A DNA stretch of 64,000 nucleotides, from the NCBI GenBank assembly GCA_008933995.1, contig WARS01000032.1:3179001-3243000 (forward strand). The letters are read 5' to 3'. Below the pieces are notes generated by a model, which saw only the letters and a list, made by a program, of their open reading frames with translations, ran no database searches and had not been told where the DNA came from. The position numbers were made by a program, and so were the translations under genes. Below are positions 97-38,199 of the stretch, in pieces (within the stretch, counting starts at the first letter, position 1; every line of letters starts with the position of its first letter). Source of the DNA: Datnioides undecimradiatus (taxonomy: Eukaryota; Chordata; Actinopteri; Lobotiformes; Datnioididae).

Positions 97-153
97 ATGA
101 ACTCATCGGCAGGTGCAGGAAACTATCGCAGGGGATCGGCCAAAGGAGAAAAG
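97..153 (+). CDS. dpp6: dpp6 alternative first coding exon, a-type (MNSSA N-terminus)
   Basis: This exon encodes a 19-residue cytoplasmic N-terminus, MNSSAGAGNYRRGSAKGEK, and ends in phase 0 at AAG|GTAATG. It therefore joins in frame to the shared exon starting GAC CTG at 48828. The ATG has A at -3 and a TAA lies in the same frame at 88-90, so this is the first usable start. The beginning resembles the MNQTA motif of mammalian 'a' variants of DPP10 and DPP6, reported to give fast N-type inactivation of Kv4.2. The basic tail (R, R, K, K) fits such a blocking peptide, but function here is inferred. A pyrimidine-rich tract ending TTGCAG at 72-77 could be a splice acceptor, which would make this the second exon of a transcript with a noncoding exon upstream of the window. 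Confidence 0.75.
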
Positions 154-1529
154 GTAATGTACATTTTAAGCCTTCTCTTTTCACTGCTTGTGCACATCTA
201 GCACAAGGCATTTCTTTCCTAACCATTAGGCTTAAAAATCCACCTTCGCCAGTTGGCACAGTGTTGTTGTTGAAGTACTTCTGAAGGCGCACTGATGCGC
301 GAGGAGACGATTTCGTTTCCGTTTGCCTTGGACTGAAAAAGAAGACGATGATAGTCGTGTTACGTGCTGTGGAGATGGCGAGGTGCTGCTGTCTTCTGGG
401 TCTTTTATCTTGATTTTAAACTTCGGGTACTTTTTTTCGATCAGACTCGGAGTTTTCTTCCTGTGTCTGACAAATGTTTTCAAAATGTCAAGTCGGTATC
501 ATCTTCAGTGCAGGATCACTTAAATCAGGCATTTTCTGGAGACAATAAGTGCCGCTATTTTACAGCAAATCACTCTTCTGGTTTCAAGGCAAAAACTCTC
601 CATAAAAAGTCTCCTCGGTGGCAGTTTTTTCCACTTGCTTCCAGGAGTTAAGACTCAATAGACCAAATCATTTGATAAGATACTTGTTTACAAAGTTCAT
701 GGACTAAATGGAGTGTCTGTGTTCAGCTTGTTCAGTAAAGCCAATTAAGTTGTCCTGATAAGAGTGTGGTTACCCTTTTCTATTCCCCTGAAGCTCTGAC
801 TTGATGTTTTACCAACTTTTACTCTGCACATCTGCCAGATTGTGTATTACCTCCTTAGGTTAGCTGTGTGGATTACTCTTTTTTTAATGTTCTCATAAGG
901 AAAACATCACAAATCAACCCACAGGAGTAAAAAACGCATTGTCTGCCAAACAATGCCCCCACAATAGCACTCCCATAATGCCATTTCCGAGCAGCACTCA
1001 CAACAGAAGAGATCCAAAGTTAACTTGGGTTACACAGGCAGACGCATCGATTGCAGTTTAAATAGGGGACAAAATGTGGTGACGCATGAATCAGTTTCCC
1101 TGTATGTGTTACTCTGAGGAGCGGCTGTGAAATATTTAATTGTGACAAATCTGTCTACCTCTAGGGGGCATGTTATCCCAAACAATGGTTTTTTTCAGCT
1201 TACAGGCTGTGTTGAAGGCTATTTATAGCTTTTTTTCAAACATACAGTGCCACTAGTTCAGTTTTAAATCTTTTTTGATTTTGATTGAAGAAAAAAAAAA
1301 ACCGTTTTCATTGTCACCAATGTGCTGAGAACAACGGTGGAAAGCTCTGTGTCTTCACTGAATTCATTTAATCCCATTAAGGCCGCTTGTTTTGTTTCAT
1401 TTGTGTAATTCAGTCTTGTCAAATGTGCATGTGTGGCTGCATTCTGTGTGGACTCACACCTTTGTCAGTGCTCCTGGGTTGTCATAGCTCAGACTTTGAC
1501 TGACTCTTGATATCATGCTGGAGTGAGTT

Positions 1530-1545
1530 TGCCCTCTGCTGGAGG
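1530..1545 (-). promoter_or_regulatory. CTCF-like motif
   Basis: On the minus strand this reads CCTCCAGCAGAGGGCA, which fits the vertebrate CTCF core CCASYAGRKGGC. It is a motif match only, made by eye; occupancy is not shown. Confidence 0.35.
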
Positions 1546-2209
1546 CACAAAGTCACACACTGAGTGGAGATCAAGGTTCCTTGCTAGTTCCTTCCCTATT
1601 TGTCAGGATGTCAGACTTTTCTCTCATTAGATCAGTTTTACAAGCCTTCAGTCAGTATCTTTCACAGAAATTTCACTGCGATGAGAAGCTCTTACCTCTA
1701 TACATTCCACATTTCTGCTGACACCACTTACAGCTCTGTGCTGTGAAAGCCCCCAAAATCCTGAACACTGAAGTTTCTGTGACCAAAGTCTGACTATTTA
1801 AGGAATCACAGGCTCAGGCTATTAAATTCTACTATAATCTGTGGTCAATTTGCATAGAAAAGAAATCATTAAGTCTGGCTGTGGATATCCGAGCTGCCCT
1901 CCTTCTCAGAGGATAGGGCGAATTGGGAAAAAATGCAGACATGTCTTCACTGAAACTCATTATGCCTGATTTGGTTGTTATGATCCTGCCCTGAGAATGG
2001 GAGAGCTCTGACTTACTGAGACTTACAAGTTAAATCTACAGAGATACATTCATAATCATCATTTTCTTTTTTTCTTCTTTTCTCCTGGCCCCTTTCCTCC
2101 TCTTGTCTTTACTTTGATAAATGTATTTAGTAATTGCAGCGATAATCGACATGCACTTTGTTGGTATATTAACTTTGACCAAGTCACAGCGGTGAATAAA
2201 CAAGTCAAT

Positions 2210-2440
2210 TTTTAAGTCAATTTTATTCATACAGCCCAGTATCACAAATCACAAATTTGCCAAGAGGCTAGGCAGTCTATATTTCTTAGACACTCGATGT
2301 GGACAAGGAAAAACTCCCCAAAAACCTCTTTAGCATGGAAAAAAATGGAAAAACTTCAGGAAGAGCAACATAGGACTGGTCTCTCTCCTAGGATGTACTG
2401 AAATGCAAAATGTGTTGTGTGTGCAGAATAGCTCCACACA
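2210..2440. repeat. degenerate teleost interspersed repeat
   Basis: The block contains an imperfect start (AATTTTATTCATACAGCCCA), then ATCACAAATCACAAATTTGCC, then GAAAAACTCCCCAAAAACC and CAGGAAGAGCAACA further on. This order of phrases is familiar from a common interspersed repeat of percomorph fish genomes. Its class is not determined from this copy, and ends are approximate. A short direct duplication, AAGTCAATTTT, is seen at its left edge. Confidence 0.6.
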
Positions 2441-5400
2441 CAACATAGTAGGAGATCCTGATGTGAACATCTGAAATGAGGCAAAATCACAGGCCACCCG
2501 TCATTGCAGTCATCTTGTTTCAAGTTTTTAATACAAGAAAATATTTGATTAATTCACAACACATCATTTCTCAATTTCAGGTCATTTTTAGAAGTTATTA
2601 TGATGTTTTGGTAAGTTGTAACAAGAGAGAAGCTGTAGCTCGTGATGGGAAATGCTCTAAGCAAAGCACAAAGATAATTATTCAAGGTTAGTGGTTCTTA
2701 TCAGAGCTGTACATGTAATATACTAAATGTACATGTTCTACTTGAAAGATGCCACTTTCAGTTCACAAGTTCATAAAAGGTCACCGCATCATCAGGTTGA
2801 TGACTGTTATACTGCATTAGAATTTTCCGGTGTTTGTTGTTACATTAAGTTACATTACAGTAAGCTGTCATTGGTGCTGTTGTAGTGAAGGGTTTTTGAT
2901 GTTTCCTGTGAAAGATTATGTTCACTGAGGATGCACAAATCCCAATATCATGGTGTGTTAGGACACACTGGTGACATCAACAACCTTTCATTCATCATTT
3001 TTATTCAGAATTCAAGATGCATCTTGGGTCTATAATTTTAAGTGCACTTGAATGAGATGGAAATGTTACTCAGCATCATTTAATCTTATTTAGATGTGGT
3101 CCAGACTGAATCAGAGGCCTCCATTTGTTCCTCCTACACCACTAGTAGAAAGCAGACTTCATATTTTTTGCCTTACGGTGACTTGTCTCATCTGTTGCGC
3201 TGGCTGCCTCTGGTGTTGCCCGTTGCCTGACGTTTTCGAGGCCAGTACGTTTCTCCTGAGTCTAGACTTCCATCATTTGCATTTACTGTGAGACTGAAAG
3301 GCTGCTGACAGTACTCTCTGTTTCCAAGATACGGATGGTATTGTTTCACACTGCGGAGATATCCATGTTGCAGCTGCTGTCTCAAATGTTCAGGCAGACA
3401 GTTGTTAAAATGTTTTCCATAAATGCATCGGTGGGGTCATGCTGTACGTTATTATCCAAGTATGTTTTGCGTGTTGTCTGGGAAGACGATCATAACTTTA
3501 ATCTGTTTGATCAGTTTCGTTTTGAGTGAACCTGTATCAGAGAGTCTGTGTCAAAGATTTACTGGCACCCTGAGCTGAATGTTAAGGTTCCCTGGAGTAG
3601 ACTTGTACAGACAAACTTTCACAGAAGCGATTTGTATGCAGCAGGAATATGTACGGATGAAATGCTTTTCAAAAGCATTCTGTATTCATCTAGTGAGCCT
3701 CTGTGTTTCTGCATTGAACCATTGCACTTTGAATCGCCTGCTTAAAAATGTTTGTATTGCTGCCCACAGCCACTATTAGCCGTCACGAAATGACTTTCAT
3801 TTTCCTGATGGGCGCATACACACACATACTATGTGTACATCTCGATACCATCTGTTTATTTTATCCAATGACCGTACTGAGAGTGATAATGCAGTGGCAA
3901 ACAATAGCACTTTGTTCAATGAAATGAAATTCGGAGACAGAGAAACAACCAGGGATGCACGGCAGCAAGGGACAGCACCATTCAACAGCAGTCATTTGTC
4001 ACCACTAACTGTTGTGCAGAGGGTTTGGCTCTCCAGGGAAGGTTTGCTGTAGATGAGAGCCATGTTTATGAAAGCTGCCCAGGTCTTCGCAGCTCCTGGC
4101 CACCCTCAAGCACCTAAAGTTCTTCATCGCGGACACAATCATACTCTTGCATTGCTCCCCGGGGTGCAGGTTTCATCTGTACCTGTCTCCTGTAACAGAT
4201 GACCTGATAGAGCTCTGTCTGTAGTGAAGCAGCTTGCATCTTGCTGATAAAGACACATCATATGCCCGAGACGCACGTATTCTTGGACTCATTCCTATTC
4301 TGACAAACAGCGTTGTGTTCTCTATTCATATCTTTGCACCACTGCCCTTCCCTGAGCTCAAAGAGGGGCTGGTCTGAGAAGCATACCAAGTACAGCAGTG
4401 TGAATCTTTGGGATCCACAGGGAAGAGGTCTGGTGGAGGATGCTTGGAGCCTTTGAGTCGATTAGCCAGGGATAGGTACTGTGGTCTGGCTGAAGGTCAA
4501 GATCAGAGCTGGGCTGAGGACATAAAGGTTTGACGGTGTCGTGGGATGTAAAGTTGTGAATTGAGTTTAGATTATACTTTCACGCTGCACTGTGGTGCAA
4601 GGAGAGACACACTAATGCACATTTCTCCACATAAATCCTTTGAATATCCATTTGGGTTAAGACCTCAGTCCTGTGGGTTTTGTCCAGTCTTGCAGCAGTA
4701 TTGGAATCATTGCTGCTCACAGATAAAAACCAATAGGAACACGCTATTAGGGATGATTTGCTTCTTGCATCCCCTACAGAGCTGTTTGTTGTTCACCACC
4801 CTTATTTATTGATCACTTTATGATTTAGCAATTTAATTCAGCAGCTGTAGATACCAGTAAGGCCTTCACTGTTAGATAAGCCAAAACCTAAACTGATGAT
4901 TTCATTATCCCTGTGGTATCTGCTAACAAACCAAGCTTTCTCTACGGCTCTAGAGAGCCACACAAGGCTCTTCCCTCCGAACATGCTGATATGTGTGGTT
5001 TAAAAGACCCAAAACGCACATTGTCATTGGAACATAAACTAATATGTCTCCTTCAGTTTTTCCATGCCATCGATCATAGACTTTATTAATCGCGTTGTTT
5101 TGACATCAGCTCCTAAAATGCTTTAATGGCACCTCAGATTCTGCAAAATCAGCAGGAGGTGACAGATGGAAGAAATTAGTAAATGAGTTTAAGCGTCGCT
5201 GTGTAGTAAAAGTAAACAAGTAAAGAAACTCAAGCCGTGCATTGTAAATCTTCTGTCAGCATGATAAAACACCACATCAACCCTCTGCTTTATGGCAATA
5301 ACGGCGGTGACCTTTTGCGCTAATTGCAATTACAGTGACTTACTGTGAGCCAGCAGTGTTCATGATCGTTGGAGTGTATGTCATGGCTGTAAATGTGACA

Positions 5401-6931
5401 AAAATGAATGTGGGAGATGACCAATCAGGGGCTTGTTTAAAGGACCCTGGGAAAATGCCATGGCACAGAATCAGCTTGTTAACAGCAGTGGCTATAACTA
5501 CAACCACCATGTCTTGTATTAACTCAAAGGACTTTATTATTCCCCGGTACAGTCACCAGAGCAATTACTCTCTCAGATGAAACCTTATCTCCTGTCGTGG
5601 GCATGCAAATATGAACTTTAGCTCATCTTTGTCCCCGGTCTATGGAGTATGGCTTTAATGTTGGCCTGATGAATACAAAAACAGCTCCAAATGTGCAGCG
5701 GTCCTCTTTTGTTCTCATCTTTGTAATTTAAACTTATGCTGTCTCGTGTTGTGTGATTACACTGCCTACCTATAACTAAGTGCAGCTCTTTATCAACTGC
5801 TGCTGTCATTTCGGGTTTGTCGACAATGTGCAAATCAAACATGTAAAATATGAGCTGAAGCCCTGCAGTCATTAGTGATAAACTGCCGCTGCTGCAGGGG
5901 GAAGACTCTGGCTTTAAATGGGTCCATGAGTCACAGTCAAAAAGAAATTCAGCTGACTTTAAATATAAGTATTTATGAAGCGCCGTGAAACCTCAACTCA
6001 GTTCCTGCCACAGGGTATAAAACACACCACTGTCCGTGAAATAAGAACATAGGCATTTCAGCTTTTTTTTATTCACATTTCCAATGAATAATTGGCAAGG
6101 TCATATTAAGATGGTGCACATTTTGCTCATGAATGTTAAATTAGATAGCAGCTTCCATAGCCGTGAAGTGTAAAACTTGAGGCACTGTTCTGCAATGAGA
6201 TGGTGCTTTAATGACCTTGCACTAGATACATCTTCAATGTATACCCACAGAATTGCAGAATCTTGATTTCACACATACACACGTAAACTGCCGGACAACA
6301 ACATCAATACAAGCCATGATTCAGCCCAAGTCCATACCTGACCAGGGATTGAGTGAGGGTAGATTCACTGCTTTTGAGGCCCTCTGTGCATGATTTTGCT
6401 GAATGAGTTATGAATGCTTTGCACTACAAGACGCCTGTGCTTGTCTTCTCAAGGTTCTGTGTTTCTTGCCTGCGGCTTTTGTCACATTCACTTGAGCAGA
6501 ATAGATTAAGAGAGGAGAGGACGGTTTGGATTTTCATTGAGATAGGACCACATCCAATTTTATAAAAAGCAATTCATTCCTTTTCATTCCTTCTTTCCCA
6601 TAGCTCCCCATGCTGTGGTTTGGTTGTATAAACTGGTTACTGGGTCTTAGCCTTGGGATTCAATACACAAAGCACAAATGCCACATAAATAAAGCAGCAG
6701 TGTGGCTCGTGCCAGGCTTCTGTCCTGTTAGCATGGTTTGATGGGTGTGTGTGTGAGTGTGCGTGAGTGTGTGTGAGTGGTGGAGGGATGTATTTTATGA
6801 TGTGGAAGACAGGCAGCATAAATATTTCTCGTGCTTAATCACAAGCCAGCTGCAAAGACTACTGAATTGATCCATTTCTTGGTAATATGTGCACACACTC
6901 AGATTGGAAAAACACGCACACATGCATGCGT

Positions 6932-6934
<3 letters not shown>

Positions 6935-6967
<33 letters not shown>
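6935..6967. repeat. (CA)n microsatellite
   Basis: This is an uninterrupted CA dinucleotide tract of about 33 bp, preceded by mixed GCAC/ATGC alternation. Shorter TG runs flank it at 6740-6780 and 7039-7053. Confidence 0.95.
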
Positions 6968-6970
<3 letters not shown>

Positions 6971-7159
6971 GGGAAAAATGCCTAGCAGGCAGTATTGGTA
7001 CTGATGTGTTGAGAAACTATTTGTGTTTATATATACAGTGTGTGTGTGTGTGTCTAATTTACTTACACTATTGAACTCTCCACCTTCGCTGGCAAAGTCT
7101 TGTTGAGAGAGTGTAAGTGTGTGTGTGAGAGAGGGAGGAAGTGAGCAAGCCAAAGGAAC

Positions 7160-7538
7160 GAGCGAGAGAGAAAGAGAGTGAGGATGAGAGAGATAAGTAG
7201 CGTTTGGAGCAGCCTCAGTGGCAGAGATGCCCCCCCAACCCCACCTACCTCCTATCCCACCCTCACACGCCCCCTGTGGAGGCGATGCCAGTGTCTGTGT
7301 GATTGATTCACCCTGCGAGAGAGGGAGGGGCTCTGGTCGGGTTCCTGGACCCCCGGGTCATCCTCTCCCTCTCCCTTAGCTGTAGGGGAGGGAGGGAGGA
7401 AGGGAAGAGAGGAGGAGTGTGTGCGGTGGGGGGTTGGTGGTGGTGGTGGGGTACTTCTCAGACACCTCTAGCAGCTCCAACTTCACAGCACAAAGGTGTG
7501 AGCACAGCAAGGCGGGAAGACAAGTGGCACTTTTCACC
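7160..7538 (+). promoter_or_regulatory. possible promoter/5' UTR upstream of the 7.5 kb candidate exon
   Basis: The stretch changes from AT-rich intron to GC-rich sequence, with C-runs (7228-7265), GGGAGGG-type GA tracts (7318-7415) and a GTGG run (7425-7450). This composition resembles TATA-less promoters, and an ATG in good context follows. No TATA box or definite initiator is seen, so the call rests on composition and position. Confidence 0.3.
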
Positions 7539-7595
7539 ATGTCTGTCCTCATAGCCACCCAGCTGAAGATAGACACCAGCACTGCTTCCAGAAGG
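7539..7595 (+). CDS. dpp6: candidate dpp6 alternative first exon (MSVLIATQL N-terminus), unrecognised isoform
   Basis: ATG in good context (CACC before it, A at -3) opens a 19-codon frame, MSVLIATQLKIDTSTASRR, that ends in phase 0 at a strong donor, AGG|GTAAGG. Spliced to 48828 it would read ...[18 protein letters not shown]. Length (19 codons) and phase equal those of the a-type and S-type exons. It follows a GC/GA-rich promoter-like stretch with no earlier ATG in frame back to at least 7419. I do not recognise this N-terminus from mammalian DPP6 or DPP10 isoforms with any certainty. Unlike the a-type tail, its start is hydrophobic (VLIA). It could also be a chance ATG-plus-donor; transcript data would decide. 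Confidence 0.5.
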
Positions 7596-8341
7596 GTAAG
7601 GGGCCCTTTTAGCATGCATGGCACGCTGTGGGGGAATGTCTGTGTTTATGGGTGAGTCTCCTGCTCCTGACAGAAAAGGCTGCTGGCTGTTTTTGATAGC
7701 AACTGGACAGGCAGGAAGGAAAGGAGCAGCGGGTCCCGACGTCCCTTCTGAGGATCTTGATGGACGGACGCTTCCCGTTTTAATTTCAAGTGCAGACTTC
7801 TAATGAATGGTTGGTAACATATGCTGCAGAGAATGCTTAGTGCCTCATTGTTATTCTTTGTGATATGTTGCCAGTTAATGACTTCAGTGGGAATCGGCCA
7901 TCATGGGGGAAAAGTTGGATAAAAGTACGTGTGTATTGTTGTGTGACATATCTGGATTTTCAGAATGATTGGATTGCATTCCTCGTAGGCATGTTCTGAA
8001 TTTAAACATTTTGTTTACACCCTGCTTTTGTGAAAATCATTCAGATGGCTTTGAGGTCAGCTAATTGCTCATTCTTTGGCTAAATGCTGACTTAATGCCG
8101 CACTCATACTTGCATGCAAATGAGCTGCAAGGGAGATTGATGAGGAGTTAGAAGTTCCAGGTAACTTTTGTTGTTCTCAAGCTATTAAAGTGTTGGAAAA
8201 TGTATGAATGGACACAATTTGAAGGTAATTATCAGTGGTTAGCTGCTCTTATAAGATGAAAGAATAGTTGTGTCATTGGATCCAAATCTCTCTACTGCAG
8301 AGAAACACTTAAGTTTACTCTAAATATAGATACTTAAACAT

Positions 8342-8481
8342 CATATGGAATATGAATATGGTGTTATGGGGCGTTTTGTAGCAGCAGTAGTTGAGAAGGT
8401 TTGAGGATGCATAGATGATTGTAGAGCCATATGGAATATTAAATGACTAAACCAGTGTTATGGGGCATTTTGTAGCAGCAG
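8342..8481 (+). repeat. imperfect tandem duplication, two units
   Basis: CATATGGAATAT followed by GGTGTTATGGGGCGTTTTGTAGCAGCAG (8342-8386 region) recurs as CATATGGAATAT followed by AGTGTTATGGGGCATTTTGTAGCAGCAG (about 8428-8481). The second unit carries about 9 extra bases inside, and the intervening sequence differs. It looks like an old local duplication. Confidence 0.7.
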
Positions 8482-9598
8482 AAAAATCCTGCAACCAATA
8501 ACTGAATGAAAAAAGAGCGGGAGAAGCAGGGTGGTTTCGATTATGTCTCACACTTCACTTGCGATAAGCTCCTTCATTTCATTTATCATGCACATGTTTT
8601 GCTGCACATGCTATTTATCTATCCACACACAAACGCACATGTGACAATAAATTCCTGGTGTTTAGTCTGCCCGCTCCTTATCTTGTTCTCATTCCTCTCT
8701 CTCCTCCTCATCATCTGCTGCTGCCACAATCCATGACTGTACTCTGCTGCTCCCCTCAAACGTAGCCACAGTCTATTCTACCACATCAGCCAGCATTAAA
8801 CTCCATTTCCTCAGTGACTTATCTGCTACCATTTCAATTTGGGCTCAGTACATAGCTTCTCTTCATCCGTAATGCACTGGAAGATTCAGCACTTATTCTC
8901 TGTAGAGGATAATAACGTGCCAGTTCCAACAGGCAACATGCTCAGCTGGTTTCAGTCCTGAAAAGCAGTTAACAAAGTTGAATTTTACACTCTACACAGC
9001 GGAAAATGAGTTTAGAGCAAGTTAGAAACGAGCACTTGTGAGGACATTTACCATAATTTTTTGTAATTTGTGGTGGGATTTTTATAAAAATATCATATGA
9101 AATGCTGATATACACAAGACTTAGTATGTGCTTATTCTGGCAGTATTCGCATATTATCAGGTAAATATGACCTGAGCTGAATTCAGTGACTGCCTGTGTG
9201 ATTTGTGGAGGTTTTCTGCTTTTTGTGCACTACGGGCCACGATTGTAATAAATTGCCATGACTTGCAGCACACAGTAATTGAATTTGCCATCGTTACATG
9301 GCCCAAAATGAGCTGAGTGCTGTTATGTAGTGTTAGGGTGTAATTCAGTGATAAGGAATGTATTCCGCTGCACAGTCCTATTGACTTTGGCCTTCAGTGA
9401 GGTATAATTACATTTTGATAAATACTGACAGAGGAAGATGTTTCTACCCTGGGAGCAATGGGTGTTATATCTAGACATATTTAATTTATAATGGGTAAGA
9501 ATGTGACATGTGTCATGTGACATGTACTTTTACACCCTGACTTTTGTTCACTTTGATTTAATAGAATATAGACATTTATCAATCAGTCTATATACTGT

Positions 9599-9622
9599 AT
9601 ATATATATATATATATATATAT
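9599..9622. repeat. (AT)n microsatellite
   Basis: A run of about twelve AT units between TATACTGT and AAAGGTATC. Its length may vary between individuals. Confidence 0.95.
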
Positions 9623-14245: not shown

Positions 14246-14437
14246 ATGGCTTCGCTGTATCAGAGATTCACCGGGAAGATCAATACGACCAATTCCTTCC
14301 CGCACCCACCTGAGGCCAGCCACCTTCTCGGTGGACAGGTTGCAGACGAGGAAAACGCTGCGAAGACCCCTCAGCAACTCGCCGATGGCCGACCTCACGT
14401 CCACTACCGCAAAAAATGCTTGCAAGAGGATGAGGAT
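14246..14437 (+). CDS. dpp6: dpp6 alternative first coding exon, L-type
   Basis: This exon encodes a 64-residue cytoplasmic N-terminus. It begins MASLYQRFTGKINTTNSF and continues with PHPPEASHLLGGQ, matching the start of mammalian DPP6-L (MASLYQRFTGKIN..., PPEASHLLGGQ) nearly residue for residue for the first 31 positions. The rest (about residues 32-64) is acidic and Gln-rich and ends QEDED, like the DEED end of the mammalian exon. It lacks the Gly/Ala-rich insert of mammals and so is shorter. The ATG has A at -3 and G at +4. The donor is GAT|GTAAGA, phase 0, giving EDED-DLVGS after splicing to 48828. This is the strongest evidence that the gene is DPP6 rather than DPP10. Confidence 0.95.
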
Positions 14438-14514
14438 GTAAGACACTTATGCTTTATTTGACAATATAACCCCCCCATAGAAAATGGGGGATGTATAGAT
14501 AACCCCTTTCAAAG

Positions 14515-14539
14515 ACACACACACACACACACACACACA
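14515..14539. repeat. (AC)n microsatellite
   Basis: A run of about twelve AC units starting 78 bp after the donor of the L-type exon. Confidence 0.95.
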
Positions 14540-17864: not shown

Positions 17865-17866
<2 letters not shown>

Positions 17867-22017: not shown

Positions 22018-22053
<36 letters not shown>

Positions 22054-22262: not shown

Positions 22263-22349
22263 ATATAACTACTCCTGTTAGTACAGCTCTCTGAATGATT
22301 TAATCACCCATATTACTGCAGCCAAGTTTCCTCAACATAACACAAACCT

Positions 22350-22990: not shown

Positions 22991-23319
22991 CATGCTACTG
23001 CCATTGCATGATGATATCTTTGTATTTGTATTCGACTGAATGCAGGAAAAACAAAGGCGTAACTAATAACATTAACAATGGCTATGTTGCAGTTAGTGGT
23101 GTCAGTAATCCCTTAACACATCGCTACACCAGAAAGAAACACTGAAATAAGAAGCAACCATTATGAATGTTTGACAACAAGTCAACATGTGTGCTGTGAC
23201 ACCCATCTGTTGGTATTGGTTCACTCACAGAATGATGCCAGGGCGGACCCTGTCCTGCCTCCAGGCTCTGGTTTAGTCTCCTGATGAATAACACATGAGA
23301 TAGGTTTTCATGTTGCATC

Positions 23320-23355
23320 CTCGCCAGACCTTCCTGTGCATTCTGGTCTTGCGAG
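23320..23355. repeat. short hairpin, possible transposon remnant
   Basis: CTCGCCAGACC (23320-23330) and GGTCTTGCGAG (23345-23355) are inverted repeats with a single mismatch around a 14 bp loop. The arm sequence is reminiscent of terminal parts of small fish transposon derivatives, but only this fragment is present. Confidence 0.4.
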
Positions 23356-25735
23356 AAGCAACGGGAGAGAAAAGTTTTGTCCCTCCAGCCATGAAGGTAG
23401 GTTTGTAGCTTGTTACTTCTGTTTAGAAAGCTCAGCGTGCAGGTGGCCGGTCAGTCTCAGCATGGAGTAACAAGTTGTTTGCTGCAAAACAGAACTGGTG
23501 GTGTGTAGTAGGGGTGTGTGTATATGTGCTACGTTACCTCTTGTGTACAGGCACATGTAGGTCATCGTCATTGTGGAGCTTTTTCTGTATGTACACGGTC
23601 GTCACCATAAATTTTTCTGCTGGTCCTCTAAGCCTGGAGTCGGGAGGCTGAATGAGCCTCAGAGCTCCGGGGACGAGGGAAGAAGATTGCTTTTCCCTGC
23701 GCTGGGAGCTGAGCGCTGACTTCAGTGATGATGTTCCGTGTGGTGCTCACATGGAGCAGAACAGAGATGGGGGAGATAATGATTGTTTGGAGTAGCGGAG
23801 GTGGAGAGAACGGGGCGCGCTATTGAGTGATTCACTATTCTGAAGTTGGCAGCCTGTCAAATCGCACCCCACCAAAGACAGGAGAGCCGAACCGCAATGA
23901 TTGATGTTCCTCCCCTCACCAGATTGGCTGTTGCATCATGGGAATAGAAAAACTTTTATTGCTGAATGTGTTTAGGAAGACGTCTTGCTGCACTGACATT
24001 ATGGCTTATGTGTTGAGACAAACATACACACCATATCGGCTTCACTGGGAAAGCTACTATATTTCTGTCCCTCCGTCAGTCTGTCTGCCTCTGTGCCAGC
24101 TGGATATGTAATAACTTCTCATGATGTTTTATTGTTGGACGGACCTGAGCAGATTCAATTTTAATTACAGTTATATTTTAGAGCAGACACACTCTTGTTA
24201 CATTTGCATTTATTGTTTTTTTTCCAACTTATGGTAGTCATGCAGACAAATCAATACTTCATAAAGTCGATATAGTGACTGTTTACACCAACAGTTATAT
24301 ATACTCATCAAGCATTAGCATTTATTATCAGCCGTACTTGTGTCCATCTGATGGATATAGAAGTCTAATATTCTCACTTTTTCAATATCCTCTGTTTCTA
24401 CCAGCTGCTGAGGGATATATCTTGTTCTTGAGCTGCTTAACACCCGGAGCTTCTTAGCTTTTTTGCTTTGGCTATGAACAACTCTGATGAATGTGGAGAA
24501 ACTGAAATAAATCATCAAAACTGTGAGGTATAAAACCAAAACGATGAACTTAAAGATAGAACTTTTTTATAGTCTGCAGAGCAGTTGGAGAACTCAACCC
24601 CTTCTTATGTTGCACCCATACCGCAAGAACGGTATAGCTCTCAAAAAGCTTAGGGTTAATGATCTTGAGGGACATAAGTACACATTAAAAAGCATGAACA
24701 AGTGCAACAGCAGACACAGACATTTATAAAGACCCCATGTAAAATGTTTGCCTTGTAAACAACAGCTTGTAATGGTAGCCCTAGAAATGGACCAGAGGTG
24801 ACATTCAGACCTGTTGTTGGTCTGCTACGGTCTGGTGTCGTAGCAGTATTGTTGCCATACCAACCACTGGACAGTTTACGTCACTTCAGTGTTCAGATAA
24901 AAAAAGCCCTTGGCTGTCTGCTGTCCTTGGGGCAGCTCCTCTGAGCTGTTAAGAAATGGCTGATCTGTGGGTTCAGCACTTCTTTTTGTCTCCGTTTATG
25001 TAGTTTGTATTCATCTGTGCTGTAACATCACGACAAGTTTGTGCTTCCTGAGCTGTAGTTTGTTGTTTACAGACAGCAGAATTTTCGACAGGTAGAGAAT
25101 CAGGCAGCAGTCACATTAAACTCTGCATTTGCCATTCCTGCAAAACCTTGAGGACGCAGATAGGGTGTGCACTCAGTGACGTCTTACAGGTATTACCTTC
25201 ACATGGTCACCGTCTTCGTCTCTTTGACCTCTCAAGACTTCATGAAATTCTAGCCTGCTCCAGCATGTAGCTGTGTGTGCAGCGCTTTTATCAATCCGGA
25301 AGGGTGGTATTGTGAGTAAATTGCTCCTGGGAGAAAAGCAGAGGGGAGACAGGATAAACAGCCCTGGGTAAAAAGCGCCATAAAGTGGCCCAGCTCTGCG
25401 TGTGGTGTGTAATGCTGATCTGTGCTGAACGGCAAAATGCAGCTAATGGCCAAGGTAAGTGGTTCAGTGCTGATTGTTGTGAAGGGGCCCCAGTGCTTTG
25501 GCTTCATCCTCCTCCTCACGCTCCTTCGAGGTCGTGTTGCAGGGATTAGTGTGGCTGTCAGCGGCTGTCGGACACCCTGTTCTGTGTGATTCTCCCTCAG
25601 GACTCCGATGTGACCTCCTCTGGTGCAACAGCAGCGGTGTCGAGTTCTCGTTGGCATTCTGGGGTCTCCTTGATGACATGGTTTTCACTTGAGAAAGCAG
25701 GGCAGTGTTTCACTTAAAGTCCATGCCAACCTCAG

Positions 25736-25736
<1 letters not shown>

Positions 25737-25771
<35 letters not shown>
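25737..25771. repeat. (CA)n microsatellite
   Basis: A CA tract of about 35 bp followed by CCCACCCACA. It lies 186 bp upstream of the 26.0 kb candidate exon. Confidence 0.95.
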
Positions 25772-25773
<2 letters not shown>

Positions 25774-25956
25774 ACCCACATAGGCATAGAACTTAAAGCT
25801 GGGATGCTGACTACGGGACTATTCTCACTGAGAGCTGAGGTGTGTCTCGTTTACGACCGGGTCATTATTCACTGTCTCTCCCTGCATCTGCATCTGCACC
25901 ACTCCTCACTCACCCCTTTCTATTGCTGACACCCCACATGCATCCACTTCGTCACA

Positions 25957-25998
25957 ATGAAAACACGCAAGTTGTCCCGGGTGGAGAGACTGTGGAAG
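25957..25998 (+). CDS. dpp6: candidate dpp6 alternative first exon, short basic N-terminus (MKTRKLSRVERLWK)
   Basis: ATG with A at -3 opens 14 codons, MKTRKLSRVERLWK, ending in phase 0 at an ideal donor, AAG|GTGAGT. Spliced to 48828 it reads ...[15 protein letters not shown]. The peptide is strongly basic (K, R, K, R, R, K) as expected for the cytoplasmic side of a type II anchor. Mammalian DPP6 has additional short isoforms (called E and K in the literature); this may be one of them, but I cannot recall their sequences well enough to assign it. An upstream ATG at 25938 is in another frame and in a weak context. Confidence 0.6.
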
Positions 25999-28099: not shown

Positions 28100-28310
28100 T
28101 TGACATCAGATCAAGCTTTGATATGGCCACTTAATTGTAAGGCCAAATACAAAACAAATGACATTCTCATCAGCCCTTAGCTGTACTTTGTGTTTGTTAT
28201 CATGCTAACTTAGCTAAGATGGTCACAGTGTTAGCGTTGTCATTGTTAGCATGCAGAGGTGAGCATGTATCTCAAATCCTCTCAGAAACACTCGCGTGGC
28301 TGTGACCCTA
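28100..28310 (+). repeat. degenerate teleost interspersed repeat
   Basis: AAGGCCAAATACAAAACAAATGACATTCTC, then CAGCCCTTAGCTGTACTTTGTG, then CATGCTAACTTAGCTAAGATGG, then GTTAGCGTTGTCATTGTTAGCATGC follow the order of a fish repeat known for repeated GTTAGCATG words. Another fragment of what looks like the same family is at 41890-42003. Class and exact ends are undetermined. Confidence 0.6.
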
Positions 28311-31300
28311 AAGGATGTTTTTAAAAGATCAAGTTAAAGAGTTGTTTCTCTTGTTAGTTTTGGTTTTTGAGATGAAATGAGATGTTTTTGTTGTTTATTT
28401 AAATCAAAATATTGAATTTTTTGAAAAATTACCAGTTTCTTGTGTTTCTTCAGAGATCTCAGAGACAGATATTTCTGGAAGACTAAAGACTGTCTCTGTG
28501 ACTAGATACTGGAGTTTCTGAGGTATGTGAGAAGACAAAGTTGTCATTTGGATGAAATGGCCCTTAAATGCAAAGTTGGTGAATGTTAGAATGTTGAAAC
28601 GACAACAACACAAGAGTAACATAAGAATTATTCTGACTGGATTTGATTTCAGTCTTTATCTGTGTGTATGAAGTTCTAATAAAGAAAGATAGAGAGAATA
28701 ATTAAACATAAACTAGATTGGGAAATTTTTTGCTGGTTGGCGAGGGTCCTTTGAGACGTGGAAGAGCATGATGATGAAAACCTTTTCAAATCTGCAGCGA
28801 ATGGCTCACGATGAAGCGCTATTCATTCAGATGCTACTAATTTGCCTTTAATCACTCCCCTCGGTATCTTTACTACTCCATTCTTAAGAAGAATAGAACA
28901 GCACTGATACATTAATTATCCTATAGTCGTACATGATTCATTATCATTTCCTTTTTGGCCCACTGAATCACATTTTTTTACACCTGCAGCTTTTGTTTAT
29001 TTGATGATTTGTAACTCCCTGATCTGAATATGTGGCACATGTTGCTACTAATTCCTTGTTTATTGCCCTTGTGGCTGTATTTCATCTCCAACTAATTTCC
29101 ATAACAACTTGCCAAAATGCAGTGTTATCTTTAAACTTTGTTCGTCTTTTCATTTTATGACCCTCTTGTAAGCCATTGATGAGCACACATAAAGTTCATG
29201 AGGCTCGTAAGTCTGTTTTTTTACGAGAACTAGATCAGCAGATGGGTTAATGCTCTGTAAATGCATGCTGACTCACCCTGCTTGTCTCTTTCTGTATACA
29301 TGCCAGCTGCCCATGTGCTACACTTAATGAGCAACTTTACTGTTTCCTTTGTTGACTGATGATTTCCTCGTTGGTCTGTTTTATTAGTCAAATCCACTCA
29401 GCTTTGGTTTGCAGTTGCATAAAGTCGCCTTTGGGTGTTTTTGTAAATTACTGCAATCTTCAAAAAGACACTTTGATGAGATAGACTCAACAGGGACACT
29501 TAGATGCTGTAACTTTCTTAAAATTACTTATAATAATAAGAATAATTTATGTTTATTACATGTGCTCTGACCAGCTCACTCTACCCCAGTAAGTCACAGT
29601 AAGTGGTGGTGGAAGAATGCGTTTTGTGTTTTGTTTTTTTTAATTTCACCTAGGTGCTTGATCTTCACTGAGCAGAGTGATGAAGTTCAAGAGTAGACAC
29701 ATTGTAACATTAATCATCAGACATCACATGTGTACTTGGAGCCCTCAGTGCACATTCACCCCTGTGAAGCAGGAAACCTCTGAAATGAAAATACATGGAC
29801 ATTTATAGTAAGAGATAAGGTGATTTTAATAATATTTACTCAGACAGAGTAAATATCAGAGACAAATTCAAAGTTAAGTCTTTCTACATTTTGTAAAACA
29901 CATGTAGAGGGGATCTGCCTACGACTATATATAATATGTTTTTATGTGAGAGGTTGAAACACTAAATTGCTTTGAGAAGGATAATTCAAAATAAACAAGA
30001 TATGATGTGTGAAACCAGCGATGGGGTGTGAATATTATGAAAACTGTAGGTGCTAACCTTGTGTTGCATGTAGCCCGAACAAGCCCAATAAAACCTGGCA
30101 GAAAATAATACAAGTATTGTAAGTTTTGGTGTAAATGAACTGTAGGGGAAGAGACGTGTTCGTTATTTCCATGGCTACATGTTGTCTCAGGCTTCTTTTT
30201 GCAGGCTAAAGCATGCTAGATTTTAGTGAATTATACTCCTAGCAGCCGTGAAGCGAGGTTATCCGTTGTGTCCATGGGAACCTTGTGTAACACCGGCAAT
30301 ATATGAAGGGTTGAGGGTTTGCATGTTCTATAAATGGACTACTGAGACTTACTGTGGAGGCCAAACTGGGATCACACTGTGAGCCTCCATTATTGGCAAC
30401 CTGTAGTACTGTTTTCCTCACTGTTATTTCCTCCAGTGCTGCAGTTTTTTCCTTGGAAGAGTCCAATTCTGGTCCCTGAGGCTGACAGACAATGATAGTA
30501 TAGATATTTTATTACTGTTTAAGTTTAAAGGTTTTCAGTGAAAAAAAAGAAATCAGTTCCACGCTGGTCTGCGGGTGTTATGCAGTCAAGATAATCTTTT
30601 CCCTCAGGAGAGAGTCTCAGGTTGAAAGTTTGTGAGTGCGGGCTGTGGAGAGCTGGTGGGATGTTGTTCTTTAGGGTCCACAGGAGGAAATGTTTTGGGT
30701 TTCTGCACATGAAATCATTTTTATGGAGCCAACAGCAACACAGTCAACCTAGGAGCACAAAAAACTACAGCCGTGATACTGAGTCAGTCAGTGGAGGCAA
30801 TGTTATTATGCTGACACTGTATGATGAAACGCATCAAATAATCTTTGATGGTCTTATTTCTCTACAGACATCATAAAATGTTGTTTAAATGATCAAGAAT
30901 ATTCTGTGCAAAGGGTCCTTTTAAAAATGCAACTCAAATAAAACAGCGAAGGCATTTCATTCATCAAGCAAAAAGCAAATACTTAAACTGGAAAAAGTCA
31001 TTTTCATTTTAAAAAACAGGACATTGTCTTAGAAATGTCGAAATACTCAATTTTACTGCAAGATTTGAAAAATTGTTTTCATCATGTGGGAATCAAGTTG
31101 GTGGGGGAAGGATTTAATTGCCTCCTTTATCATCATATTATATTTAGTGTAAATGACAGCAACCAGTTGTAGAAAACATGTCAGCTTTCTGAAGTAAATT
31201 ACAACTAAAAGGAAGTAAATGAATGCAAAAGACAAACCTGCTGTAACACACAAGCCATACTTCTATGTGAGGAACATGGCATGTGCAGCTTCAAGCACTG

Positions 31301-31562
31301 TACAGCACCCGGCAACATGGTATAACAGTAAAAACTATAAAACAGTATTGATCTGATGCCTATGAGCTTAAACCATGAACGTACAGTATGTAATACAACA
31401 CACAACAGGCTTAGTGTCATTGAATAATGTGAACCAACTGTAGCAAGTAAGTTTGCCAGCAGGGCAGCTGGCCCCCAGAAAAACAGTTAAGTATTGATGA
31501 GGGTCAAGAAGTAAGGCTCAGAGGCGAGAGAAGGATACAAAGTTAATGTAATTTCTTATAAC

Positions 31563-31566
<4 letters not shown>

Positions 31567-31614
<48 letters not shown>
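31567..31614. repeat. (GT)n microsatellite
   Basis: An uninterrupted GT tract of about 48 bp. Confidence 0.97.
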
Positions 31615-31615
<1 letters not shown>

Positions 31616-33903
31616 TAAACAATTCCAGTGAAGACAATGGCAGATTAATTGTTTCCCCCTGAAAGTTGTCTCTTGGTAGAAGACCAATAATGAGTCTGAT
31701 TAAAGACTTGTGGACTTGTTAATTACCCTTCTCTAATGTCCAGACAGTGAAAAACTGCCTCCGCCTGCAGTCTGAAAACTTCTCTGCCTTTTTTATCACT
31801 CTGCGACACATGTAGGCGCGTTTTCTCAGGGCCGAGGCGGTGACCTTTAAGTACAGTAATGATCTGTGATGAACCATGAAACGCTGCCCACATGCCAGCT
31901 CTTATCCTTAACCTGTGATTTACAGCTGCAGCACAGCGGGCAGGAGTGGAGATGCAAACGGCAGTATTTACACTCAGACAGGCAGGTGTGCTGACAGTTG
32001 GACAGCTGAAGGAGTCACGGCAGGCCGGAGGGCGAAGGGGACGTGACTGATGATTGAGTTGGCTGGCCTGACAGCTGGCAGCACGGCTGAATAGAAACAG
32101 CTTGTTCCTAAATCAGCAGCCATTGTTGATTGATAGGATTTCATTGGCACTGTGCATGAGGATAATCTATAATTACAGTCATTCAATAGAATTTTTACTT
32201 TGCATGTTTTATTAAGTTTTTCAGAAAGGCATCACTGGCATCGGTTTGGTCTGAACGCTGAACATCTTTAGACAACATAATCAAAATGCTGAGGTCCAAG
32301 TCCCCCTGACATATAGGACACTAGACAATGTTGCAATGTTTGAATTATTTGTATTTGTCGGTCCTGGATGATTTGGTGACACCCATAGTTGCCACGGTAA
32401 CAGCAGGAGCTGTGTAATGCCACGGCAAACACTCATTGTGAGACATAAAACAAAAGAGCAACTGGTGTTGTCATGATAACCAAACAACCAAACAATCTCA
32501 CATTGTTTTAATAAAGTCAGTCAATCATAATTTCCACCCCTGCCCACACTGAGAGTTGTTTTGCACACAATGGCAAGTGAAGTCACCTTGTGGAGGACAT
32601 GGGGGTGTGCTGCCTGTTCTCTGTAACTCATCATCCAACAGCTTGCTGTGGCTCCTCCATCACTCCATATCATTAGATTCATGTAGTGAAACTGATCCCA
32701 TGACAAAAATGGGCATGTCTTGTTTTGTAGAAGCATTTTTGATCAGCCATTAAAGTTTTCAGATTAACTTTATTTCCTGTGGCTGCTGCACAAAACAAGC
32801 TGCCCTAACTTTAGCCAGTTGGGTTGACTTAAATGTGAAGCTGCAGCAGTGACAAGTTTTCTTTGCGTTAGCAATAATTTAACAGAGCTGTGGTATGACT
32901 GTGAGCAGAGTGAAGGATAAACATCGAGGCTGTCATCAATGAGATAACTGGATTAGATGCATGCACTGTTTTCCTGTGATTCACAAAAACGTCAAATCAA
33001 TGACTCCATGACTCCCACTGAAAATTACTTTACAGAGAGAGATCATTTCTTAATAAAAAGACATTGAATTGCAATTGCTGGAAGAAAATCCAACCCAAAC
33101 AGGGTTTGATTTCATTAAAAATACTTTTTTGGATTATTGGATTATTATTTTAACATTTAGACCTACCATGGTTTAATACATGTTTAAAGCCACCAGTATT
33201 AATACTCTGGTGAGGAAATACAAAATTCTTTATCTATTATAATATTATTTGGTGTAAAAGCAGTTTAAAAAGCAAATACTGCAGCAGCCCATAATAAACT
33301 ACGTTCAACATGTTGGTGTTTAATTGTCTTTGGCTGGTAAAATCTCAGCGGAGATTCAGAGGAAATGACCTCAGTGTCCACACTGACAGCTAAATCTCTT
33401 CCCAGTTGAGTATAAATGCAAAAAATTGTTTATGTAAAAAAAAAAAATCTATTTTTTAAATCCAAAATCATGGGTTGCTGATTAATAATGCATGAAACAT
33501 TCACAACATCACTACAAAAGCAAAAAAAAGTCCCACACAACTGACTCCGCACCTCTCGGACACGGTTTAGACTAAATGTGGAAATGATCGGCTTTTGCAA
33601 AGGTGAAATTTATTGTAATGCTGTTGTGCTGCTTTGCATTAGATTGCACAGGTGTTGATGATATTATGTGTGTCCTTTGCTCATCAGCGTAGCAATATTG
33701 TGCCGTCTGTATGCCGGGAAAAAAACCCTCAGGGAGGCATTTGTACAAAAACGGGGCAGATAATGGTGCGCTGCCTGGCATTGTTGGTTTTAAGTGGCTG
33801 TGGCTGTGGCTGTGCGAGGCTTTCTGCTCTGTTTGGACTGTGGAGAGCGAGCAGCTGATAATAGTCGGTTATCAAACAAAACTGTCCCGGCCTTTGTTAT
33901 GTC

Positions 33904-33905
<2 letters not shown>

Positions 33906-33940
<35 letters not shown>
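33906..33940. repeat. (CTGT)n microsatellite
   Basis: A tetranucleotide tract of about nine CTGT units, followed by a short CT run. Confidence 0.95.
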
Positions 33941-33941
<1 letters not shown>

Positions 33942-36839
33942 ACTGTCTCTCTCTCTCTGTCTCTCTTTCTGCCTCTTTCATCTTTCTTTTCAGTCTTCAC
34001 TAGCTGGAGTGATGGCCATGAGTAGCTGCGTTGATCAGGGTTTCAGACTTTTATATTCTCTATTAACGATCTTCCTCCATAAGAAAACATTTCCTCACAT
34101 TATTCAAGAGAATCTTTTTTGTCTTTTTTAATAACTGCATGGCCACACTAAGTCTTCATTATAAACACTAATTTGTGTCAGTGCTTTTGTAAAGAAATAG
34201 AAAAACAAGCCCTGGTGTGAAAAACAATTAAAAGGGGAATTGCCCTGTGACAAATTTGATAAATATGTATTTTTTGTTAAAGATAAAGATGTCAGACAAC
34301 TTGTGATCACTGGGGGGAGCTAGCATGCAGTTGAAGACATTCATATTGTTTTTTGACAGCTGAATAAATGACTGTTTGTTAGCCCCCTAGGGGAAAAAAA
34401 CCCCTTCAACAGTACTACACACAGCAGTTTGATGCAAACTGATTGTTTAAGGGACAGGATGGAAGGACAGGATATATTTGACAAGTGCTGCCTAGAGATG
34501 CCATCTCAGGCAGCACATAAACCACCAAATGATAAAACAGAATATAAATGAAAATGATGTCAATTAGCTGATAAAAATGAGTGGTTCAAAGGAAACCATG
34601 TGTTGTACAAACAAATGCTCTGCTGGCACGCTCTGACCCCACACGGCTGCCTTTCCTTTGCTTCTCCAATTAAGCCTGATTGTCTGCTGTTTCTTTGGAG
34701 GGTAATTGTTGCCAGAAACCTACGTGCATCGTGTTGTGATGATCAATCTTTGTACCCCTCGCTGCGTTTAGGTTCCTTCTCGTGTTTATTAGAGCTTGGC
34801 TGGCCCTCAAGCTCTCCCCGTGTTCATTTTTTCTTTAATGCAGTGTTTATCTTGTAAATGCTGCCTTGTTGCTTTTCACTTCTCTTGAAGCTTTATTCAC
34901 ATTTTTTGTGTGCCTAATTGTCAGGAGTGAGGTGAGTTTCATCTGTCACTGAGCGACTGTGAAAAGCACTTGTGAGTGGAAACAGACAATAAGGAAATGT
35001 AAGAGACTGTCACATGGTTGAGGATTAAACAGTAGTGTTGAATAATGAAATGTGTTTAATACAGTGCACAAGCTTTTTGTTTGAATTCGTTTGTGAGAAT
35101 GTATTCTGGTGAGAGGTAAACAGGCCCTCTGCTCATGTGTCAGTGGAGCTGTCCACAGCAGTGGTGCTGAAATGAGTCTTGGCAGTGAGCTGGTCGTGCT
35201 GCTCCCTCAGGCCATGTGTGGAGCTGCACAGTGACAGCAGTGCCAAATGCTGTGTTCGATGCGGTGTGCGGCCTTTTAACGTCAATTTATCCTGCCAGCG
35301 ACGTTTGTGTGTTTTATCTGCAACATTAGAAAAACAATCTTCTTCTGCATCCAAGTTCTTCTGTCGAAATACTTTTTCTATGTCGAGTCTGTATCAGCTT
35401 ATGGCTTCTTTACATTATTCTTCCATTTTTCCCAATTCTTCCTGATCCTCTAATGTTTAGAGGGACAATGATGAAGGCCAGTATTGGGCTTTCTAGATTC
35501 ACAACCCTATGATGATGATGATGTAATATGCTGCCATTTATCTTAACAGTTATCTGTTTTGCTATTAATTCCATTTTTTGCAGTTGTGCTCATCCAAGCA
35601 CTCGCACACTGCAGTATTTAATGTAATGTCCTTTTTCTGAATACTGGTGCTCTCTATTGTTGTTCAGCTGCTACAGTGTAAAATAGGAAACAGTGCAAGT
35701 AGAAATAGTGTACAATCCAAAATGTACACATCCAAGCCAAAAAATATACACAATCTTATAAGTGGGAGTTGATTATAGTATTTTTGTGAGTGAACTTAAG
35801 ATAAAGGAATTGTTGTGATGTTAAAAATAAGCTTCATATATTGTGTAGATTTTTTTAAAACAACGTTTAATGTACCATGGTCATGTCATGGTCCAAGCCA
35901 GATTCATTTAACACACTCTGGTACCAGGCAGGCTAGATTGGTGCATCCATACTTACGGGCTAATGGACTAACGGGCTTCTGTAGTGAAGGCATCACGTTA
36001 TGTGACAACTATTTAATTTATTTTTTTAAACTGAAACATTATGTATTTCTACAAAAACTGTCAAATTTTGTTTTTGGCATGCGGAAAGATTCAAGGGAAT
36101 CCGCAGGATTCATGGAACACTATAGACTACTTTGTAATGTGCACTTGATGCCCCAAACAGTGGTGATGATGTTCAAAACAAGAGGATTAATCTGAAGAAA
36201 CTTTCTGAAAATGCTGGAGAAAAATCTAAAAAATGTAATTATAATCAAATTAGTTTTTCCAGGTGTATCCTGGCCCGATAACGGCTACTGGTTTCCTAAT
36301 CTGACTGCATGATCTGGCAGCGCTTCATGTCTTCATGTACATAATTTCTAAGTGAGTAATGAATGAAGATGTAATTGGAGAATGAGCTGGATCGTGCAGT
36401 TTAATTTCCTGAAGCAATCATAACATTTCATGATTTACTGCATCATTTATTATTATTATTACCGTGCAGTCTCAAGATTTTAAGATAAATGGACACTTTT
36501 AAGTTTAGAGTGTGCTGTGTTTATTCTGGCTAATTTATAGACCCACAAATGACTGTGAGAGAACTCACCTTCACCTGAGCATAAATTACCCCTTGAGGTG
36601 ATGGTAAAGGTATTAGACTGCCGACATTACTGTAACAAGGGAATCTTTCCCTCATGCTGGTGCCAAAAACATCCTCCTCTCTGACTCACATCACAGAATT
36701 TCTCTCTGTCTTTCTTATCTGGGATTGTTCAGTTCCTTTCCCTCCAACAGATGACTGGTTCAAAAGGCCAGGAGCTCTGCAGAGACTGTGCATGACTTCT
36801 GAACAAACGCACTCTCCAGAACCACAGCGCTGCATGTGT

Positions 36840-36888
36840 GAATGCACGTGCGCGCGTGCGTGTGCGTGCGTGCGTGCATGTGTGCAGC
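36840..36888. repeat. alternating purine-pyrimidine GTGC tract
   Basis: Imperfect repeats of GTGC/GCGT (for example GCGCGTGCGTGTGCGTGCG). GC-rich alternation of this kind is a good Z-DNA former. Confidence 0.7.
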
Positions 36889-37839
36889 ACAAATAGTCAG
36901 ACAAGCTGTGCTAACAAGAGTGTGGATTGTGTGTGCACAGAGATGTGACACACGGTGAGAGAGTTACAGCACAAACAATGTTTTGTGAGGAACTGGAACT
37001 ATTTCTGCTGTATGTGGGAGGACGGTAGCACTGCTTCTCAAGAGCCAGGCCAGCAGCAACCCTTTGTTTTATTGGCAGACAATACAGCAGCATTGGCATA
37101 CAGTATAGTGGAGTAAATATGAGTTTCTTATGGGCATGGACACACTTTGCAAATCTTTCCTCTTCCTACTCCCCAAACCTGCAATGCACAGAACACTGTC
37201 AGTCATGAATGTACTTTAACATACAAAAGAACTGCACTGTTACCTGAAAGTATTTTGTTCTGCTTGCATTGATTCCTGTTTCCATTTCCTGTGTAATGGA
37301 CTTGCCAGTAATGAGTGCCCACAGTGATCTGATTCAAACTGACAGGTCTCCATATTATCAGTTGCTATGAGCTCGGAGTTGAGCGGTAGGGAAGTGGAGC
37401 CTGGTACGACTAAATATAGGACCAGGTGGAAGGACAAAACCTTGAGCTCTCCTTTATATCACGGAGGAGGGGTGGAAAGCATCACGGAAATGGAAATGAT
37501 AAAGCTTTTCAGCTTCGGAGAAGTCAGAGAAGAGTTTGGGGTTGGGGGGGGGTTACCACCTGGAGCGGCTACGTTTGGTTAATAAAGACGTTTCAGGTCT
37601 GATTTTTTTGTCGTTTCATCTCGCTGTAAAACTGAAAACTGCACCATACGTTTATGAGGAAAATAATGGAAACAACAACTTGTTACGCAGTTGACTCTAA
37701 CACAAATCCTCCAGCACCACGATTTCTTCTCTCATTTCTGCGCTATTTAGGAGTGAGGTTCACTTATTTAGCAAATAACACGACTAAAAAATAAAAAACA
37801 AACAAAAAAAAATTAGGTATATGATTGAGATTTAGGCAA

Positions 37840-38008
37840 CCACTGAGCTGCGGGTGATGCCACTGCCGCTCTGAGAGGCGATCTGAACCTCCCACATCGC
37901 GGCGGTCCACGGTTTCCTCCTGCACAAATCAGCTGAACCCTGCGCTGTCTGCACCCACGGTCTCTTCATTGTTGGAGCAAATCAGTGGATATCCTTGAAC
38001 GCTTTGTT

Positions 38009-38047
<39 letters not shown>

Positions 38048-38142
38048 CTGCGCCTCTCTCCGCTTCATTATTCTGCACCTGTCAGCAGCGGACGCCAGCG
38101 CGCGCTCCTCTTCCCTCCTTCCTCTCCTCTTTATTCGCCGTC
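37840..38142 (+). promoter_or_regulatory. probable promoter and 5' UTR of the S-type exon
   Basis: The sequence becomes CpG-containing (GCGGCGGTCC at about 37900, GACGCCAGCGCGCGCTCC at about 38090) and carries a CT-rich pyrimidine tract at 38012-38044, ending just upstream of the S-type ATG. Its composition contrasts with the AT-rich intron before it. The transcription start cannot be placed. Confidence 0.45.
38012..38044. repeat. (CT)n microsatellite in S-type 5' region
   Basis: A CT tract of about 33 bp lying 100 bp upstream of the S-type ATG, possibly inside its 5' UTR. Confidence 0.93.
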
Positions 38143-38199
38143 ATGACTTCTGCAAAAGACGCGAGCGGGCCGGTGAAGGCGGCTCAGCAGCAGGATCAG
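38143..38199 (+). CDS. dpp6: dpp6 alternative first coding exon, S-type
   Basis: This exon encodes a 19-residue cytoplasmic N-terminus, MTSAKDASGPVKAAQQQDQ, and ends in phase 0 at CAG|GTAGGA. Mammalian DPP6-S starts MTTAKEPSASGKSVQQQEQ, of the same length and the same pattern, including the QQQ-D/E-Q end directly before the shared exon. The ATG has G at -3. The exon sits in CpG-rich sequence typical of a promoter. It is closest to the shared exon, about 10.6 kb upstream, which is also the order expected from mammals, where the S promoter is the most downstream of the well-known ones. Confidence 0.93.

Follow-up and report, generated by a model that had tools for sequence, protein, structure and literature searches.

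A candidate array of alternative N-terminal exons in one of two DPP6-like genes of Datnioides undecimradiatus

Organization of the locus

The stretch of DNA analyzed here, 64,000 nucleotides of contig WARS01000032.1 from Datnioides undecimradiatus (positions 3,179,001 to 3,243,000; hereafter the window, on contig C476 in our numbering), very probably carries the 5' portion of a DPP6-like gene, one of two in this genome, with an inherited array of alternative N-terminal exons from which exon K is missing and in which exon a is altered. For mammalian DPP6, a, K, L and S are described as alternative first exons (PMC3366920), DPP6D being named as well (PMC3973911), and its N-termini set the inactivation and recovery of Kv4 channels (PMC3366920).

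Five ATG-containing segments, each with a GT at its phase-0 end and each fitting in frame to position 48828, had been proposed in a preliminary description. Reading and re-translation of the + strand confirmed all five as stop-free, with the phase-0 ends as described. They are exon a (97-153; MNSSAGAGNYRRGSAKGEK, 19 codons, then GTAATG), of DPP6a type; exon x (7539-7595; MSVLIATQLKIDTSTASRR, 19 codons, then GTAAGG); exon L (14246-14437; MASLYQRFTGKIN...EDED, 64 codons, then GTAAGA); exon y (25957-25998; MKTRKLSRVERLWK, 14 codons, then GTGAGT); and exon S (38143-38199; MTSAKDASGPVKAAQQQDQ, 19 codons, then GTAGGA). Exons x and y were matched to none of a, K, L and S. The acceptor at 48828 opens common exon 2 (48828-48942, + strand; phase-0 start, phase-1 end), which encodes the juxtamembrane and transmembrane segment, in phase 0, so that all five segments can be joined to it in frame.

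The assignment to DPP6 rests on exons 2 and L. Exon 2 reads 38 residues, and 8/8 PDB sequences that it matched are DPP6 (best E-value 6.2e-16), a count that depends on whether the PDB also holds a DPP10 anchor; L together with exon 2 matches the human DPP6 chain 7w6t_I from residue 1 (E-value 4.3e-35). A search with exon 2 of the fish's own genome (581 Mb) gave four loci, on C476 (the window), C389, C468 and C483. The window exon 2 is identical to the human one at 35/38 residues and that of C389 at all of them, and both carry the anchor motif SLIVTS, as in human DPP6. The C468 and C483 loci hold a homologous exon 2 but read SLITMS where the window has SLIVTS, and we take them to be DPP10. The fourth of these loci, at C483:3423494-3423562 (L004), has in addition a diverged start, EFVDVSPPQ.

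Candidate segments were scored against query peptides for a, S, K, L, DPP10a and DPP10d. Exon a scored 35 against human DPP6a (next candidate 12; 1 of 5000 shuffles reached 35) and 13 against DPP10a, where it fell outside the top four while other candidates scored up to 18. Exon S scored 49 of 92 against the human S peptide (next candidate 26), and is the closest of the five to exon 2, as is S in mammals (PMC3973911). For none of the queries did x or y appear in the listed top four. The proposed identity of three segments as a, L and S is thus upheld, for L by chain 7w6t_I and for a and S by these peptides and by their homologs on C389.

A second DPP6-like gene carries the same exons

We compared the window and 100 kb upstream of it (C476:3079001-3243000, 164 kb) with 170 kb of C389 from the same genome. 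The second copy extends from exon a through exon 2 over C389:9675481-9816685, in the order a, K, x, L, y, S, exon 2; the order in the window is the same without K. On C389, exon a lies at 9675481 (MNQTAGATNAYRRCSKGGK), exon K at 9695145 (MKEKSLIETAKMQGNVM), exon x at 9724951 (MSMLIATQQIDTTTSKM, then GTAAGG; between K and L), exon L at 9736117 (82.6% identity to the window L over 86 bp), a y-like match with its donor at 9757464 (RKPSRVESAKRFWR, then GTGAGT; between L and S), exon S at 9783980 (MTTAKEGNAPSKAAQQQDQ) and exon 2 at 9816573 (81% identity to that of the window). Exon a and exon 2 are 48.7 kb apart in the window copy and 141 kb apart on C389, and the proposed compression of the array into 38 kb, relative to a larger span in mammals, is therefore in part a trait of the window copy.

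In an all-against-all comparison of 67 x 186 ATG-to-donor peptides on the + strands of the two copies, the non-microsatellite pairs among the nine best were L (167), S (67), x (47) and a (46). Top scores listed for the three control combinations of strands were 53, 43 and 51 where pairs with repeats were counted and approximately 42, 40 and 44 where they were not. Synonymous changes made up 13/17 of the changed codons in the first 31 codons of L, 8/14 in S, 6/11 in x and 3/6 in y. Conservation of start codon and donor in related fish had been named as a check on the array; examined within this genome, on the C389 copy, it holds for a, x, L and S. Exon y shares with its C389 match the donor and 8 of the final 11 residues, but not the ATG.

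The anatomy of the segments, taken by itself, is no evidence for exons, since such segments are as common on the - strand as on the + strand. With a set of splice-site weights, we searched positions 1-48827 for phase-0 segments that run 10-100 codons from an ATG to a donor: at a donor score of at least 4, the + strand gave 65 distinct ATGs and the - strand 74, a score of at least 8 left 10 candidates on each, and a score of at least 10 left 1 and 5, respectively. When the 10 + strand candidates with donors of at least 8 were ranked by donor and start context (a ranking that covers that strand only), y came first, S second and x fourth. The donor of y is the strongest of the five (12.2 of a maximum of 12.5), and those of a and L are modest (6.9 and 6.39). 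As judged from the sequences, what lifts the array above chance is the set of homologous exons in the second DPP6-like gene, and not the pattern; chance as the whole explanation was dropped, because homologous exon pairs in matching order on C389 exceed it. Each exon of the window array thus has a homolog on C389, in an unchanged order and with y the least certain; this is the part of our interpretation that speaks for inheritance of the array, and we hold it with good confidence. A design rule of 19 codons, to which the preliminary description had drawn attention, did not survive: a and S have 19 codons in both copies, x has 17 on C389, and DPP6a has 20 in a published alignment (PMC3968176).

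Exon K is missing from the window copy

Exon K, which belongs to the published DPP6 set and is reported from teleosts (PMC3366920), had been passed over in the preliminary description, whose account of the array was to that extent incomplete. On C389, 14/17 of its residues are identical to human chain 7ukg_I, with an E-value of 2.7e-27 for K and exon 2 together. It was not found in the window or the 100 kb upstream (C476:3079001-3243000). In the interval where the C389 order would place it (154-7538, + strand) there is no K-like peptide, the best ungapped 17-residue score being 16, compared with 82 for K itself; across the 164 kb of C476 the best such score in stop-free frames was 25. For calibration, the last 12 residues of human K scored 52 against the C389 exon, and a 12-residue K peptide reached at most 26 of 59 on both strands of the C476 DNA. 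A genome-wide K pattern with at most one mismatch matched C389 and C495, and nothing on C476.

The C495 match was rejected as an exon K since it has no GT at the donor position, and the segments at 7539 and 25957 were rejected in that role by K-peptide scoring. A K-like 12-residue frame (LIKIAKMQQNAM, 38 of 59) was also observed on the - strand at C389:9724050 (L025), approximately 0.9 kb before exon x and without a donor.

A K exon located more than 100 kb upstream is unlikely, because another gene lies there: a - strand frame approximately 77-78 kb upstream of window base 1 (L007:1917-3137), one of five tested, encodes FYRN and PHD-like zinc-finger domains and is presumably KMT2C/D-like. The four other long - strand frames near it gave no Pfam match. 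Since K is present in humans and in published teleosts, its absence here points to loss in the window copy rather than to gain elsewhere.

Exon a is altered in the window copy

Conservation between fish and humans is reported for the MNQTA motif of exon 1a, mutation of which alters fast inactivation (of DPP10a; PMC9409431); the same motif is described for the DPP6a exon responsible for N-type inactivation (PMC3366920). Cys13 (Cys14 in Fugu) is conserved and is the target of redox regulation, its replacement in C13S leaving inactivation itself unchanged (PMC3968176). The C389 exon a reads MNQTA and has Cys14, in agreement with both published features. In the window the exon reads MNSSA, lacking the motif, and has no Cys. 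We therefore predict from these residues that pore block by the window exon a is probably weaker, and that its redox control is probably absent. Its donor scores 6.9, compared with 10.5 on C389.

Choice of promoter or of splice site

It had been proposed that each first exon has its own promoter, a view in line with the alternative mRNA initiation described for mammalian DPP6 (PMC3366920). The most CpG-rich 600 bp covering each exon have an observed/expected (o/e) CpG ratio of 0.84 for a, 0.83 for L and 0.93 for S in the window, the S stretch having the highest CpG count of all its 600-bp stretches; the values are 0.30 for x, 0.41 for y and 0.42 for exon 2, with a mean of 0.31 over 164 kb. On C389 the corresponding ratios are 0.95 for a peak at 9675151 beside a, 1.12 for K, 1.11 for L, 1.06 for S and 0.53 for x, with a mean of 0.46. 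The proposal is thus consistent with the CpG peaks at a, L and S and finds no such peak at x and y, while a perhaps follows a leader exon. A further CpG-rich stretch lies at 23301-23900 (o/e 0.60), with no exon matched there.

The alternative that x and y, and also a, are internal 5' exons transcribed from further upstream, so that choice would be made by splicing more than by promoter, is the one that survives best, although we consider it rather doubtful. On C389 an acceptor 11 nt before the ATG of a stands at the 99.9th percentile, which suggests an upstream leader exon, and a donor (7.4) lies 116 nt before that ATG; in the window, two acceptor-like sites above the 99th percentile lie 153 and 159 nt upstream of x, and x and y show no CpG peak. 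Against this, approximately 0.6 acceptor-like sites in the top 3% are expected by chance per 300 bp, the acceptor before the window exon a is only at the 91st percentile, x on C389 has one at the 95th and y in the window has none in the top 5%, and alternative initiation is the published mechanism in mammals (PMC3366920).

As for exon a itself, the weak acceptor at 76-77, 19 nt before its ATG, suggests that the window exon may begin at 78, and a donor (10.5) is present 265 nt before the ATG. Exon a is perhaps preceded in its transcript by one leader exon, located just upstream of the window's first base.

Exons x and y

Exon x scored 45.5 against its C389 homolog, compared with 21.5 for the best unrelated segment among 648 candidates; none of 20000 shuffles of x reached 45.5 against the C389 peptide, and none of 200 attained its local score of 47 when all 1706 C389 donors were compared. 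Between the copies, 6 of its codons are identical, 6 differ synonymously and 5 nonsynonymously, and the DNA around it aligns over 64 bp only, over the exon. Since x is alike as protein while its DNA surroundings are unaligned, it is probably functional, although we found no description of what it does, and it is a strong candidate for an N-terminal exon. A genome search with the short x peptide recovered only the window's own x and missed the C389 homolog, indicating that this search is insensitive.

For y, the best local match among the 1706 C389 donors is RKPSRVESAKRFWR at GTGAGT (score 33, next 27), and it ends exactly at a strong C389 donor between L and S. With the match anchored at the donor, the score of 33 compares with 20 for the next of 263 and was reached by none of 300 shuffles, nor by any of 100 when all 908 + strand donors were used; unanchored, 10/300 shuffles reached it when compared with the 266 + strand donors that lie between L and S. 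Upstream of the match, the C389 frame contains Met codons. We conclude from this comparison that y is probably homologous between the copies.

Neither exon was found described in the DPP6 and fish dpp6 isoform literature searched, a scope that lies apart from automatic fish gene annotation. DPP6D falls outside the comparison of x and y with a, K, L and S, since the literature searched gave no exon sequence for it beyond its naming in PMC3973911.

Several points weigh against an inherited array that includes x and y. The raw scores of a (46) and x (47) hardly exceed the best non-repeat controls, and given this small margin the case for these two exons is carried by their order and full-length fit. 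Exon y is not among the nine best pairs of the unanchored + strand comparison, 38/300 of its shuffles reach 33 against all C389 donors when unanchored, its start codon is not kept on C389, and the donor-anchored test was designed after the match was seen. Neither x nor y has CpG-rich surroundings, and exon 2 of C389, though no first exon, has a ratio of 0.89, which makes CpG richness an imperfect promoter mark. The comparison, moreover, rests on a single genome.

These points bear on the possibility that the true exons are a, L and S alone, with x and y no more than ATG-donor segments that arose by chance within a large intron. The number of such segments is at the chance level, neither exon has a CpG peak, and y is absent from the unanchored pairs listed; but C389 holds a homolog of x at the corresponding position (45.5 versus 21.5 for the best unrelated segment among 648) and a donor-anchored match to y (33 versus 20), and we regard this possibility as unlikely. 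That the window copy is decaying after duplication, its array no longer in use, is very unlikely, for although its exon 2 has 35/38 human residues where that of C389 is fully identical, K is missing, a is altered and the donor of a is weak (6.9 versus 10.5), the acceptors of exons 2 and 3 each stand at the 98th percentile among window AGs, changes in L are mostly synonymous, and further core exon pieces are present.

Common exon 3, where the ectodomain starts, lies at 51099-51197 (donor GTGAGT at 51198), and the further pieces lie at 55296-55379, from 55519 on, at 56181-56270 and at 60171-60290, the ends of these being approximate; all are on the + strand and were located by tblastn with a human DPP6 core.

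Interpretation

The preliminary description's notion of alternative N-termini that can be joined to one membrane-anchor exon agrees with both phase and homology. In the arrangement we favor, an array inherited by both copies, a, x, L, y and S would each be spliced in phase 0 to the shared exon 2, and the choice of promoter and of 5' splicing would set the short cytoplasmic tail of a Kv4 auxiliary subunit. The window copy would have lost K, and its exon a would have been stripped of two residues of the pore-block motif and of the redox cysteine. With K missing and a altered, N-type inactivation by this copy would probably be weaker and insensitive to redox state, K-type slowing of recovery would be absent, and the copy would lean more on S, L, x and y.

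The gene is of a known kind, and what is new to us is the pair x and y together with the missing K and the altered a of the window copy. The locus resembles mammalian DPP6 in its variable N-termini on a common exon 2, in the a, L and S types and in the position of S, and differs from it in lacking K, in an exon a without MNQTA and Cys, and in having x and y. It resembles the C389 copy in its exon types, which have homologs there in matching order (for y with less certainty), whereas C389 keeps K, MNQTA, Cys14 and the larger spacing. One possible history, with slightly less than half of our confidence behind it, is that x and y predate the gene duplication and were kept in both copies, C389 retaining K and a pore-blocking, redox-sensitive a, while the window copy lost K and disarmed a. 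If so, Kv4 currents in the neurons of this fish would differ according to which DPP6 copy is expressed. A genome in which one copy has the known inactivation tails intact, and the other lacks K and has a changed a tail, is a natural test of the role of each tail.

Further observations

Rfam and tRNA scans of the window gave no match. A search for relatives in collections of genome contigs and viral contigs returned 128 and 14 pattern stretches, respectively, with 0 confirmed by tblastn. Outside the identified exons, 82 bp at 78% identity are shared between window coordinate approximately -54546 on C476 (L009) and C389:9722522-9722603 (L025), and could be a repeat or a conserved element.

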